A stretch of 64,000 nucleotides of DNA from Candidatus Binataceae bacterium (lineage in GTDB: Bacteria; Desulfobacterota; Binatia; Binatales; Binataceae): the NCBI GenBank assembly GCA_015478645.1, contig JADMIL010000005.1, positions 1 to 64,000 of the forward strand, given 5' to 3'. Position 1 is the first letter of the stretch. Every line of letters begins with the position of its first letter. Position numbers and translations under genes: made by a program. Shown here piece after piece: positions 1-56,778 of this stretch. The notes below the pieces were generated by a model. The model had not been told where the DNA came from, ran no database searches, and saw only the letters and a list, made by a program, of their open reading frames with translations.

Positions 1-50
1 GACCCATGCGCTGCGCTCAGGGTGACAGCAGAGCCTTGTGCAGAGGTTCC
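1..50. repeat. MITE-like palindromic repeat, copy A (cut by window edge)
   Basis: Right part of the dispersed palindrome: one inner arm and the right terminal repeat CTTGTGCAGAGGTTCC ending at 50. The next four bases are TTAG, which fits the YTAR target pattern. The left half lies outside the window. It sits 20 bp beyond the stop codon of the sensor kinase gene. Confidence 0.85.
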
Positions 51-1180: not shown

Positions 1181-1277
1181 TAATTGATCCTATCAACTTA
1201 TCGCTATCAGTGCGTGGTCGAAATTCGCCCCCCGTCTCACCGAAAACCCGCAAAACCTCAGGCCCGCGCCGCGCTAG

Positions 1278-1385
1278 GGAACCTCTGCACAAGTTAGGTT
1301 GTCATTCTGAGCGCAGCGAAGAATCCCGGATCCGGGACCCATGCGCTGCGCTCAGGGTGACAGCAGTGCCTTGTGCAGAGGTTCC
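1278..1385. repeat. MITE-like palindromic repeat, copy B (best complete copy)
   Basis: A complete 108-bp element between direct repeats CTAG (1274-1277 and 1386-1389). Terminal inverted repeats are GGAACCTCTGCACAAG (1278-1293) and its complement (1370-1385), a perfect 16-bp match. Inner arms 1301-1318 and 1344-1361 are 18-bp inverted repeats with two mismatches. The centre is the 14-bp palindrome TCCCGGATCCGGGA (1324-1337). There is no coding capacity. The right CTAG holds the stop codon of the minus-strand gene that ends at 1386. Confidence 0.93.
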
Positions 1386-5002: not shown

Positions 5003-5115
5003 CGGAATCTCTGCGCAAAGCCCACTGTGTCATTCTGAGTACAGCGAAGAATCCCGGATCCGGGACCCATTCGCTGCGCTCAGGGTGACAGCAGCCTTGC
5101 GCAGATAGTTACTCC
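5003..5115. repeat. MITE-like palindromic repeat, copy C (degraded)
   Basis: The same nested palindrome with diverged ends (GGAATCTCTGCGCAA at the left, TTGCGCAGATAGTTACTCC at the right) and an intact centre TCCCGGATCCGGGA. The right flank is CTAA, a YTAR-type target. Its CTA (5116-5118) is the stop codon of the minus-strand response regulator. No clear left target duplication remains. Confidence 0.8.
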
Positions 5116-8108: not shown

Positions 8109-8117
8109 CCTCTCTAG

Positions 8118-8225
8118 GGAACCTCTGCACCAGGCGCTGCTGTCACCCTGAGCGCAGCGCATGGGTCCCGGATCCGGGATTCTTCGCTGCGCTCAGAATG
8201 ACAACCTAACTTGTGCAGAGGTTCC
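8118..8225. repeat. MITE-like palindromic repeat, copy D (reverse orientation)
   Basis: A complete 108-bp copy, inverted relative to copy B, between CTAG direct repeats (8114-8117, 8226-8229). The flanks continue as CCTCT on the left and AGAGG on the right, so the unoccupied site would read CCTCTCTAGAGAGG, itself a perfect palindrome. It lies between the convergent genes bcp and the SDR. Confidence 0.93.
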
Positions 8226-8300
8226 CTAGAGAGGACCAGGCGCGGTGGAGCACGCGGGCGAACGCGCGCTCCACCGCGCGATTGAACGATCCGCCGCGCG

Positions 8301-10548: not shown

Positions 10549-11730
10549 TCAGTCGGCCTCCATCAGGGGAATATCGAAGGCGCTCTTGCCGAGAAATTCG
10601 AGGCTCTCATCGCTGTCGAACGGATGATAAAGCCCGGCGCGCACGTCGCGGTAGTAACGTTCCAGCGGCAGCCGCTTGAAGTACGAGGAGCCGCCCACCG
10701 CGCGCAGCGCGAGGTCGACCACCTTGACCGAGTTTTCGATCGCGATCATCCGCGCGGCGACCGCCTTGCGCGACCAACTGCGCGGATGATCGATCTCGAG
10801 TTCGGCCGCCGCCTTCCACATCACCGCGCGCGCGCCTTCGATCAGGAGATCCATTTCGCCGACCTTGTTGAAGACGCTCGGCAGATGGCTCATCGGTTTC
10901 TTGAGCGGATAGCGCGGCCGATCGCGCATGAAGTCGACTACGAAGTTGCGCGCGGCGACGGCGATACCGATATACGGCGCGCCGATCGAAAACGGCGCCT
11001 TGGCAAAGACCCGCGTGATGCGCCCGCTGCTCGAGACCTTGCGCTGGAGCACCACGTCATCGTCGGCGACGAAGACCTCTTTCAATTCCGCGCTGCGCGA
11101 CTCGGTCGCCCGCATGCCCATCGTGTTCCAGTCGTTCTTGAACTCGAGGCCGGCCACGTCGCGCGGGTTGAAGTAGAGGCTTAAGATCGACGGTCCCTGC
11201 GGCGCATCCTCCCATGCGGCCTCGATGAAATACTGATCGAGCGCGATACTCTGCGTGCCGAAAATCTTGCGGCCGTTGACGATCCATCCGCCGGGACCGC
11301 GCCGCGCGGTGGTCCGCGGCCGCAGCGCGATGACCGCGTTGTCGGGTTCGGAGCCCGAGCCGCCGCAGATCAGCCGCTCGCCCGCGATACGCTTGAGCTT
11401 GCGCTCAACGTTGGGCGCCTTGAACTTGCGATACAGGTCGACCAGCAGCTCGACCACGTTGAAATGCATGTTGATCGCGAGCGCGGTCGCGCCGCAGCCC
11501 TGGGCGAGACGCTCCTGGGTCTTGATCCGCTCGAGCATCGAAGCACCGAGCCCGCCGAAGGCCTCGGGGATGATCAGGGTGGTGTAGCCGGACTCCTTGA
11601 GGCGGGCGTAATTCTCGTGCGGGAAGGATCGTTCCTCGTCGTGGCGCGCGGCGCGCTCGGCAAAATCATCGGCCAGCGTGCCCGCCAAATCGATGAAGCG
11701 CTGCTCGCGTTCGGTATTGATCGGATTCAT
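10549..11730 (-). CDS. Acyl-CoA dehydrogenase family protein (second)
   Basis: 394 residues, divergent from the previous protein. N-terminal helical domain with the EAFGGLGASMLERIKTQERLAQGC region, the flavin-domain motif GGWIVNGRKIFGTQS and a C-terminal AVGGSSYFKRLPLERYYRDVRAG motif typical of the acyl-CoA dehydrogenase/monooxygenase superfamily. No obvious catalytic glutamate could be assigned, so it could be a flavin monooxygenase such as a DszC/HpaB-like member. The ATG at 11730 has GGAGGG upstream. It is transcribed away from the TfdA-like gene. Confidence 0.85.
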   Translation of the reverse strand: MNPINTEREQRFIDLAGTLADDFAERAARHDEERSFPHENYARLKESGYTTLIIPEAFGGLGASMLERIKTQERLAQGCGATALAINMHFNVVELLVDLYRKFKAPNVERKLKRIAGERLICGGSGSEPDNAVIALRPRTTARRGPGGWIVNGRKIFGTQSIALDQYFIEAAWEDAPQGPSILSLYFNPRDVAGLEFKNDWNTMGMRATESRSAELKEVFVADDDVVLQRKVSSSGRITRVFAKAPFSIGAPYIGIAVAARNFVVDFMRDRPRYPLKKPMSHLPSVFNKVGEMDLLIEGARAVMWKAAAELEIDHPRSWSRKAVAARMIAIENSVKVVDLALRAVGGSSYFKRLPLERYYRDVRAGLYHPFDSDESLEFLGKSAFDIPLMEAD

Positions 11731-11962
11731 CGCCCGCCCTCCGTACATCCCAGATCGCATCCCCGGGCGCGCCCTCAGATTGACGCCCGGATCAGCGGCT
11801 CGTGGATCGTGGCGCGAGCTTACTACCAAGGTTGCGCAGCGTAAAACGGTTGCGCAGTGTAGAGTGATACGGCGAGCGGCGCGCGGGACGGGCGTGACGG
11901 GCGCGTCCGCTTGACCGTGCGCCGCGCCATTTGCGATAGAAAATGCCAGCGCGACGGCGCGA
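11731..11962. other. Intergenic region between divergent genes
   Basis: About 230 bp between the divergent acyl-CoA dehydrogenase and TfdA-like genes, up to the left end of repeat copy E. It includes a short AT-richer part around 11815-11875 that could hold a promoter. No gene is supported. Confidence 0.35.
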
Positions 11963-12069
11963 GGAACCTGTGCGCAAGTTAGGTTGTCATTCTGAGCGCA
12001 GCGAAGAATCCCGAATCCGGGACCCATTCGCTTCGCTCAGGGTGACAGCAGAGCCTTGTGCAGAGGTTC
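11963..12069. repeat. MITE-like palindromic repeat, copy E
   Basis: A nearly complete copy in the same orientation as copy B: left end GGAACCTGTGCGCAAG, right end CTTGTGCAGAGGTTC. The flanks are GCGA on both sides (11959-11962 and 12070-12073), so here the target duplication is not YTAR. The right end is 25 bp upstream of the TfdA-like start codon. Confidence 0.87.
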
Positions 12070-12094
12070 GCGAGGAGCGCGCGAGGAGTGGACG

Positions 12095-44551: not shown

Positions 44552-46183
44552 CTAGCCCGTCGGCGATGGCGACGGCGCCGGCGTAGTTGACGGCGCGACC
44601 GTCTCCGCGGGCGTCGCCGTACTTGACGGCGGCGCGGCGGGCGTGCCCGTGACCGTGATCGTCGCCGTTGGCGTCGCGGTTGGTGTGACCGTTGGCGTGG
44701 CGGTCGGCGTAGCCGTTCGCGTCGGCGACGGCGTCCGCGATGCCCTCGGGGTCGCCTTGCGCGTGGCGGTTGGCGTCGCCGTGGCGGTCGCGGTTGGTGT
44801 GGCGGTCGCCGTCGGCGTTGGAGTGGGCGTCGGCGTCGGCCTGATCCATGCCGCCGGCCAGCGCACCTCGATCAGCGTCGCCGTATGGCCCGCCCGCGCC
44901 TGGTTCAGATCGCCGGTCGCACTCCATTTTCCGCTCTTCGGATCGAACAGCTCGGCGCTCTTGAGCGGCCGATATTTCTGATCCCAGCCGCCCGCGATCA
45001 GCACCCGTCCGTCCGCCAGCAGGTTCGCCGAATGGCCGTAGCGGCTGACGCTCATCGGCGCGGTCGCAGTGAATTTATTGATCGCTGGATCGTAGATCTC
45101 CGCCGACGGATCATCGCGTCCGCCGACGATCAGAATCCGCCCGTCGGCCAGCGTGGTCGCCGTATGGCCCGCGCGCTCATGGGTCATCGTGGGGCCCGGC
45201 GCAAAGCGCCCCGACTGCGGATCGTAAAGCTCGGTCGTGGCGAGCGCGCCACTGCGCGCATAGGGACTGCCGCCCGCGATCAGTACGCGCCCGTCGGCCA
45301 GCGTGGTCGCGGTATGGTAGATGCGGTTGGTGCTCATCGATCCGGTCACGGTGAATTTGCCGCGCGCCGGGTCGTAGGTCTCGGCCTGGGCGTCGCCGCC
45401 GCCCGCGATCAGCACGCGCCCGTCATCCAGGATTGTCGCCGTCTGGCAATAGCGGCTGTCCGAGAGATCGCCGGTCGCGGTGAATTTTCCGGTAGCCGGA
45501 TCGTAAAGCTCCGCGCTGGTCGACCCCCCGCCGACGATCAGCACCTGGCCATTGGCGAGCAGCGTGGCGGTCGGCTCGTCGCGCGCCGTGGTCAGCGGAG
45601 CGGCCGGGGCAAATTTGCCGCTGGCCGGATCGAAAATTTCGGTCGACGGCAAAATCCACGGCATCGTCGGCCCCGGAAACAGGATTAGCGGCACCAGCAC
45701 CGTATCGACGCCGCCCACGATCAGCACGCGCCCGTCGAGCAGCCGGATCGCCTCGTGGCGGTCACGATGCGTCCCCATCGAGCCGGCCGGGATAAATCCG
45801 CCCGCCGCCGGATCGTAAAGCTCGGCCGAGCCGAGCACCGCCGGACTGTCGCCAGTCGGCACGCTGACGGTACCCGTGCCGCCAGTCATCAGCACCAGCG
45901 GACGCATCACGATTGCCGGCGTGGGATGCGGCGTTGGCGTGGGCGACGCCTTGGCTCGTTTAGCATGATGCGCGCCATGATGCGGGTGATGGGTCGCGGC
46001 CGCCGCAGCCGTCGCGCCGCCCCCCAAAATGATCAGCCCGATCGTCACGATCGTCGCGATCGCCCATCCAATGCGATCGACGGCCCGCCGCCATCCGCGC
46101 GCGCCCGCGCCGGCGCCTTGCCGCTTATCGGCGCGCCCCGCCGTCCGCCGCGCGCGCGTCCGATCCTGCCCCGCGTCACTCAT
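44552..46183 (-). CDS. Kelch-repeat protein with Thr/Pro tail
   Basis: 543 residues. A membrane segment at about 39-62 follows a basic cytoplasmic N-terminus, so it is likely anchored with its body outside. Then a His/Ala/Lys stretch, and about seven Kelch repeats at 95-440 (each with [16 protein letters not shown] or close to it, plus a YDP/FDP motif) that should form a beta-propeller. A long Thr-Pro-Ala tail (about 445-543) resembles a glycosylated linker. No enzyme motif is seen; a protein-binding or sugar-binding surface role is likely (inference). Confidence 0.85.
44570..44870 (-). repeat. Low-complexity tandem repeat encoding the Thr/Pro tail
   Basis: Short imperfect tandem repeats built from GGCGT, GTCGC and GGTTG-like hexamer units, encoding TPT / TAT / PTATP repeats. 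Such DNA may slip in length. It is inside the Kelch gene. Confidence 0.75.
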
Positions 46184-51025: not shown

Positions 51026-51247
51026 ATGGAAACCGAACTGATTGAAATCGAGATGATCGAGGATCGTTCGAGCCTGGCCGCGATGTCCGCCGAAGCGCGC
51101 TCGAACGGCGCCGAACTGGTCTGCCGCCGATGTGGCAATGCCGAGGAAGTCATCGCGGGCGTGCTGGTCATGATGGAAGGGAGCGAAATCTGGGCGCTGT
51201 GCGGGCCGTGCTGGCGCCAATTGCCGCAGGGATCGCATATCGTCTAG
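51026..51247 (+). CDS. Small zinc-ribbon-like protein
   Basis: 73 residues. Two CxxC pairs (CRRCGN at about 32-35 and CGPCW at about 59-62) are spaced as in a zinc ribbon. The N-terminus is acidic (METELIEIEMIEDRSS). The ATG at 51026 has GGAGG 11 nt upstream, so the start is well supported. Its TAG stop is the CTAG target site of repeat copy F. The small size and zinc-binding shape fit a regulatory or adaptor protein; I do not recognise a named family. Confidence 0.68.
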   Translation: METELIEIEMIEDRSSLAAMSAEARSNGAELVCRRCGNAEEVIAGVLVMMEGSEIWALCGPCWRQLPQGSHIV

Positions 51248-51354
51248 GGAACCTCTGCACCAGGCTCTGGTATCACCCTGAGCGAAGCGCATGGGTCCCG
51301 GATCCGGGATCTTCGCTGCGCTCAGAATGACAACCTAACTTGTGCAGCGGTTCC
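51248..51354. repeat. MITE-like palindromic repeat, copy F (reverse orientation)
   Basis: A near-complete 107-bp copy between CTAG direct repeats (51244-51247, 51355-51358). The left CTAG is the end of the zinc-ribbon gene and includes its stop codon. A one-base deletion occurs in the inner arm. Confidence 0.92.
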
Positions 51355-51358
51355 CTAG

Positions 51359-51908
51359 CGCCAGACGCGATGCGCGACCTCCCAGCTGATTGGAAACTGT
51401 TCTAAACCCTCGAAAACTAAGACTAATTCGTACCTGCCAAAGCTGCTGCCAAGGCCTCGTGCGCGCATTGCGCCGAGCGCGCCGAGAGCAGTCTTGAGTC
51501 CAATCAGCGAAAGGCGTATCGATTTGAAGTGAGGCGTAGGCGGCTCGCGTCTGCGGCGGGATCGCGCGGCGGATTGCGTGGATCGCACGGCTCTTTCGCA
51601 GATTGCGAAGCGAGCTGACGAAACGGCTGAATCGGGGTATGCGACGCATCTCCGATTGAACCCCAGCACCGGGAGGAGCGGGCGGCGCGAGCGGCCCCGG
51701 CTGAATCGGGGTATGCGACGCATCTCCGATTGAACCGGCGATGGCACGAAATTCGCTGCGTTGGCTTACGACCCGGTATCCGCGAACGGAACTGGAGCCT
51801 CCGGACAGCTTGTGGGGGTCGCCTCGAACGCGCCGCTCGATCGGCCGCGTAATTCATCCCCTGAACGTGAGTCCAGCTTCACGCGCGAATCGCGCGGCCC
51901 GGGATTGA
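51359..51908. other. Gene-free region with a duplicated hairpin
   Basis: 550 bp between repeat copy F and the MFS transporter. Open frames in it are scattered and unsupported. It holds two copies of a 39-bp palindromic repeat (next entry); nothing else could be recognised. Confidence 0.45.
51624..51736. repeat. Pair of 39-bp palindromic direct repeats
   Basis: Two identical units at 51624-51662 and 51698-51736, 35 bp apart. Each contains an imperfect inverted repeat around GAC (ATCGGGGTATGC / GCATCTCCGAT). It is a possible protein-binding site or folded RNA; the next gene starts 172 bp downstream. Confidence 0.8.
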
Positions 51909-56717: not shown

Positions 56718-56778
56718 GTCACCCTGAGCGCAGCGAACGGGTCCCGGATCCGGGATTCCTCGCTCCGCTCAGAATGAT
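56718..56778. repeat. MITE-like palindromic repeat, copy G (core only)
   Basis: The inner arms and centre TCCCGGATCCGGGA survive, but the terminal repeats are gone. It lies between CTTAATTA sequences at 56694-56701 and 56799-56806, both followed by similar sequence. It sits between guaA and der. Confidence 0.78.

Follow-up and report, generated by a model that had tools for sequence, protein, structure and literature searches.

The 108-bp repeat dispersed through the window, the 64,000-nucleotide stretch of DNA analysed here, is, with a probability of about 0.88, an IS5-group MITE that is moved in trans and carries an inverted hairpin pair as passenger cargo, the pair being spread by the MITEs of several transposases. 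The reading as an IS5-group MITE, put forward in the original prediction, is supported by the ends that the repeat has in common with IS5-group elements, by YTAR duplications and by empty sites. That prediction overlooked the nature of the MITE interior, a hairpin repeat in its own right that also occurs in MITEs of other transposon types. The first base of the window is base 1 of contig C35 in a 3.06-Mb genome assembled in 98 contigs (G000; hereafter the own genome).

All seven copies or remnants that had been proposed within the window are present where they were reported (Table 1), as are the perfect 16-bp terminal repeats of copy B, the CTAG on both sides of three copies (B, D and F) and the TTAG on the visible right side of copy A. 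The accompanying claim that the copies are all intergenic stands for six of the seven, as judged by a simple gene caller run on the window, but not for copy E, which overlaps the called start of a minus-strand open reading frame (10549–12027); this may be a wrong start. An exact 39-bp direct repeat (51624–51662 and 51698–51736) lies near copy F. The window also contains six imperfect repeats with a spacing of approximately 130–180 bp (44987–45827), which possibly encode a repeat-domain protein.

Table 1. Copies of the MITE in the window, component parts of copy B, and terminal-repeat frames enclosing the hairpin pair in other genomes.
Feature	Position in window	Strand	Remarks
Copy A, right half of MITE	1–50	+	cut by contig start; TTAG at 51–54
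Copy B, intact 108-bp MITE	1278–1385	+	inverted repeat, perfect 16-bp ends
Copy B, left target duplication CTAG	1274–1277		right counterpart at 1386–1389
Copy B, left terminal inverted repeat	1278–1293	+	GGAACCTCTGCACAAG; common to IS5-group element
Copy B, right terminal inverted repeat	1370–1385	-	common to IS5-group element
Copy B, hairpin unit 1	1300–1325	+	TGTC-ATTCT-GA-GC-GCA-GC-GA-AGAAT-C
Copy B, hairpin unit 2	1335–1362	-	inverted, partly decayed; TGTC-ACCC(T)...GGGT type
Copy C, decayed MITE	5004–5115	+
Copy D, intact MITE	8118–8225	-	CTAG at 8114–8117 and 8226–8229
Copy E, full-length	11963–12070	+	flanks non-YTAR (GCGA/CGAG)
Copy F, intact 107-bp MITE	51248–51354	-	CTAG at 51244–51247 and 51355–51358
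Copy G, hairpin pair alone	56718–56778	-	without recognisable terminal repeats
Frame F2			TATAGTGAACGACTTAA; looks TA-flanked
Frame F3			ATACCAAGTTGCGGTC; looks TA-flanked
Frame F4			CAGGCTGTTGAAAAAC; CTAG or TTAA outside, read directly
Frame F5			GAAGCTGTTGCAAAACC
Frame F6			GAGCCTCTTGCAAAA
Frame F7			GGAAGCTCTGATTAATTC; TTAA outside
Frame F8			GGGAAACTGTCCCAAAACC

The repeat is dispersed over the whole genome, where GGAACCTCTGCAC, with at most one mismatch, occurs at 112 + 117 places, compared with 1 + 1 for the reversed control. Since some of these ends belong to IS copies, the number of MITEs in the 3.06-Mb genome is approximately 100–115. The consensus of the 63 two-ended copies is 108 bp long, with a median identity of the copies to it of 0.972. 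Being short, non-coding and present in many copies, the repeat has the features by which a MITE is recognised; the whole of it folds into one long hairpin (z of approximately −11 as DNA and −12 as RNA), and the second of its two internal hairpins is partly decayed in the own genome. Many contigs, including that of the window, start or stop within a copy, from which it follows that the MITE breaks the assembly. At one locus (L034:130–350; C55, 67140–67348) a MITE copy is split by about 100 bp of a different palindrome, which is flanked on each side by CTGAG and is probably a further miniature element, and at another (L027/L224; C7, 1–161) a MITE directly adjoins an IS5 right end, a single CTAG being common to both.

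Duplication of YTAR is the target pattern of the IS5 group. A census of the flanks of the 63 two-ended copies (in 64 rows, the L027 copy having been counted twice through an overlapping end match) revealed identical 4-bp flanks for 35 of the 63, every one of them YTAR, in agreement with the predicted bias. These exact duplications comprise CTAG (21, one row being the double count), CTAA (10) and TTAG (4), and no other tetramer is duplicated in the 64 rows; YTAR is found on the left of 52 rows and on the right of 49. The proposed comparison with sister genomes likewise yielded empty sites: the locus of the L003 copy is uninserted in five congeners (G001, G002, G003, G004 and G006), as seen when the flanks of the copy, joined with one CTAG, were used as the query. 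The alignment runs across the junction, at which the congeners read CAGG or CTGG.

The original prediction had suggested looking for a full-length IS5-group element that has the ends of the MITE, and such elements were found in several relatives. Complete elements of 1172–1215 bp with the same 16-bp ends are present in G013, G017, G021, G029, G052 and G085 (loci L094, L096, L097, L098, L124 and L132), and complete IS copies in relatives are flanked on both sides by CTAG or TTAG, as is the MITE. The transposase of the G029 element (321 residues) matches the NCBIfam model IS5_4 (NF033581; E = 4.6e-97, 324.8 bits against a cut-off of 140) and contains the Pfam domains DUF772 and DDE_Tnp_1. In the own genome, the IS left end GGAAGCTCTGCACAAGTGTTTCGGTTCGGGTATAAATAG is located at seven places, all of them contig ends and preceded by CTAG or TTAG, with slight variation among the seven within its first six bases; the right end GGAACCTCTGCACAGGTGGTTGTGC is located at three, again all contig ends. 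These IS stretches are ends of some 45–70 bp only, and the parent transposase gene is absent from the own assembly in searches with PF01609, PF05598 and the N-terminal transposase protein, of which the first returned only a broken transposase of another type and the other two gave no match. Apart from the 16 terminal bases, the IS and the MITE have little in common, and the MITE interior is therefore not simply a relic of the IS.

Some further features were observed. At the end of contig C68 of the own genome (L031) lies a DDE transposase of another type that is broken, with interruptions of its reading frame, and is bounded by inverted ends resembling CTAGTACTACTGTGTCATAA. In G022, the IS left end continues into the start of a transposase gene; on contig C117 of the same assembly (L082), a CRISPR-like direct repeat of approximately 36 nt (GATTTCCGCGCCCATTGGAGCGCGG.CCCATTGAAGC) with unique spacers lies beside an internally deleted IS5-group copy. 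The copies in G022 are 99% identical, and we do not claim horizontal transfer to it, as one of them has the right flank of contig C66 of the own genome; the likeness between the two possibly stems from a mixed or very close MAG.

The interior of the MITE is an inverted pair of units, each of approximately 28 nt and reading TGTC-stem-GA-GC-GNA-GC-GA-stem-CTC; the same unit of about 28 nt also occurs alone, with sharp bounds and unrelated flanks. GCGNAGC is the unusually stable DNA mini-hairpin of Hirao and colleagues, as cited in PMC4686876. A scan with the stem left free gave 48 units, with kinship among them ignored, in which 12 combinations of the 5-bp stem occur, seven with perfect pairing (ATTCT/AGAAT, ATCCT/AGGAT, ATTCC/GGAAT, ATGCT/AGCAT, ATCCC/GGGAT, ACCCT/AGGGT and GTCCT/AGGAC); the observed pairing was reached in none of 5000 shuffles of these 48 units, kinship likewise being ignored. 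Further scans, which also disregard kinship, found GNA in 64 of 72 units when the loop was left free (GAA 27, GCA 18, GTA 10 and GGA 9), GA/GA kept in 64 of 67 when the tandem GA was, and complementarity in 74 of 85 when the inner GC was, including the compensations AC/GT (8) and GT/AC (2). For the second arms of pairs across the phylum, 30 of 36 non-ATTCT arms are perfect, whereas shuffles, which similarly leave kinship out of account, give 14 on average and 24 at most. The co-variation and the loop rule together show that the hairpins are maintained as structures. Rfam contains no known RNA family for the element; its sole match, MIR8622, reaches 41 bits against a gathering score of 197 and was dismissed as a chance hairpin match.

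The hairpin pair is nested inside other terminal repeats as well. An outer inverted repeat (score of at least 10) surrounds 50 of the 92 two-armed cores in genomes other than G000, compared with 6.6% in a permuted control in which right flanks were swapped between genomes. At least seven frames (F2–F8, Table 1) enclose the core pair besides that of the window (F1, GGAACCTCTGCACAAG). According to alignment scores, F1 partly resembles F6 and F7, and F4, F5, F6 and F8 partly resemble one another; F2 and F3 resemble none of the other frames and are unlike IS5-type ends, which implies that at least three unrelated kinds of ends enclose the same pair. No autonomous parents of the other frames were found, and a search of seven genomes for DDE_3 transposases gave none with F2 or F3 ends. 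Among IMG/VR contigs, outer inverted repeats are present around just one of 28 hairpin pairs, so that nesting is a feature of the genomes of this phylum and not of the repeat everywhere. In family f5 (L062, L063 and L069; G089, G044 and G099) a larger conserved frame (~...attggcacactTG ... gtgtatgaatgttctg...) encloses the core and is a candidate further MITE. A first look gave some 136–155 candidates in each of G044, G089 and G104, and 30 in G099.

In the mechanism that we propose, an IS5-type transposase from a separate IS of approximately 1.2 kb would bind the common 16-bp ends and would insert the MITE in trans at YTAR, duplicating 4 bp, with the hairpin pair presumably carried along inside; recombination between MITEs, or insertion, may have brought the pair into the different frames. 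Most likely, the pair is a module that travels as a passenger inside the MITEs of several transposases and spreads in this way. As in MITEs of IS5-family elements, the repeat is non-coding and about 108 bp long, with 16-bp repeats common to an IS5-group element, a YTAR duplication and about 100 copies; it differs from them in that its interior is a hairpin pair that MITEs of transposons of other types contain as well. TIMEs (Tn3-derived miniature elements; PMC4133298) similarly have non-autonomous ends able to carry foreign modules, although theirs are Tn3 ends of 38 bp, with larger cargo and no shared hairpin repeat.

Two alternatives concern what moves the pair or how it came to lie within the outer repeats. 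The inverted layout is that of a REPIN (PMC3116915), and Y1_Tnp genes are present in most core-rich genomes outside the family of the window, as might be expected if a RAYT (Y1 tyrosine transposase) moved the pair and the IS5-like ends were incidental. However, there are no Y1_Tnp matches in the own genome, G004, G225 or G360, the core lies within approximately 1.5 kb of only one of 30 Y1 loci, no RAYT gene flanked by the hairpin repeat was found among those 30, the GTAG tag is absent, and YTAR duplications are located outside the IS5 ends. We rejected a REPIN/RAYT origin, which we regard as scarcely credible, because the Y1 loci are not flanked by the core. The outer palindromes might instead be pre-existing targets entered by REP dimers, a view held for some dimers in PMC3733652, in which GTAG-15 and CGTC-1 dimers are reported within long palindromes. 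This is very improbable here, as the outer repeat corresponds to the ends of complete IS5 elements and has the IS5 target duplication outside it; moreover, among the 100 TIR matches listed, no pair lies much closer together than in a full MITE, and no core-free frame was seen.

The remaining alternatives concern function. Selection might keep the copies at gene ends as bidirectional RNA elements (terminators or mRNA stabilisers), their mobility being old; the very stable RNA fold, the mostly intergenic location and the co-varying stems are consistent with this, and effects of MITEs and REPs on mRNA are known (PMC3733652). Near-identical copies, exact duplications and empty sister sites nonetheless point to recent spread, and a run of U is absent, which together make such a role unlikely as an explanation for the copies. 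Their adjacency to genes tells the same way: the stop codon of a long open frame is used by 11 of the 19 copies with YTAR on both sides, little above the proportion among YTAR sites throughout the window (40 of 94). Gene-end selection need not be invoked, because YTAR sites often overlap stop codons in any case, and target choice explains most of the positioning of the MITE. That the copies are small protein genes of the HSERSEESR type is exceedingly unlikely. The core does read HSERSEESR in one frame, as the original prediction stated, but changes on one side of the stem are compensated on the other, as fits a structure rather than codons, and the copies are mostly intergenic; the further statement that the sequence is often mis-annotated as such proteins is unconfirmed, the string not being found in the literature searched.

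The units can be compared with published repeats. CGTC-tagged REPs often carry TGTC, have an A–T pair at the stem base, form inverted dimers and occur without a transposase; whether other transposases move them was asked by Di Nocera et al. (2013; PMC3733652). The units described here share with them the unpaired TGTC tag (a variant named there), the A–T stem start, the inverted dimers, the frequent heterodimers and the lack of a dedicated transposase. The published REPs have an 8–9-bp stem, a 4–5-nt loop and a CCA tail, whereas the present units have 5 bp, a tandem G-A and 2 bp, with a GNA loop and a CTC tail and, unlike those REPs, are nested in transposon ends with a known parent. Since the match covers the tag, the base of the stem and the dimer arrangement but not stem length, loop or tail, we regard the units as related to the four published families but as belonging to none of them. 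REPINs with RAYTs (Bertels and Rainey 2011; PMC3116915) likewise consist of two inverted hairpin repeats with a short spacer; the pair here differs in having no GTAG tag and no cognate RAYT, and has IS5-type ends instead.

The core (approximately positions 22–86 of the MITE) extends well beyond the MITE itself: it is matched in 55 of 193 relatives, in most cases unaccompanied by the MITE ends. The exact 26-mer TGTCATTCTGAGCGNAGCGAAGAATC is present in 31 of 395 genomes of the phylum, with at most 29 copies per genome outside G000, and its reversed control is at zero everywhere. The core pattern occurs in 74 IMG/VR stretches, and relatives of the core are located on plasmids of Calothrix, Planktothrix and Hymenobacter. 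A literature search by sequence words gave unrelated matches only, and the TGTC/GNA hairpin repeat seems not to be described in the literature searched. Its stem and loop rules define a precise pattern with which this repeat, distributed over several phyla, can be searched for.

More broadly, we lean, if only slightly, towards the view that bacterial MITEs commonly carry the co-varying GNA hairpin pair as a passenger, and that the pair has repeatedly entered the ends of different transposons (IS5-like with YTAR, and at least two unrelated TA-flanked kinds) and has spread over the phylum. The spread of CGTC-type REPs has long been an open question because no transposase accompanies them (PMC3733652); a similar hairpin pair within the ends of a known parent family, with duplications and empty sites, makes that question directly testable. 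If the view is true, repeated entry into transposon ends would answer how REPs of the CGTC/TGTC type move without a transposase of their own.
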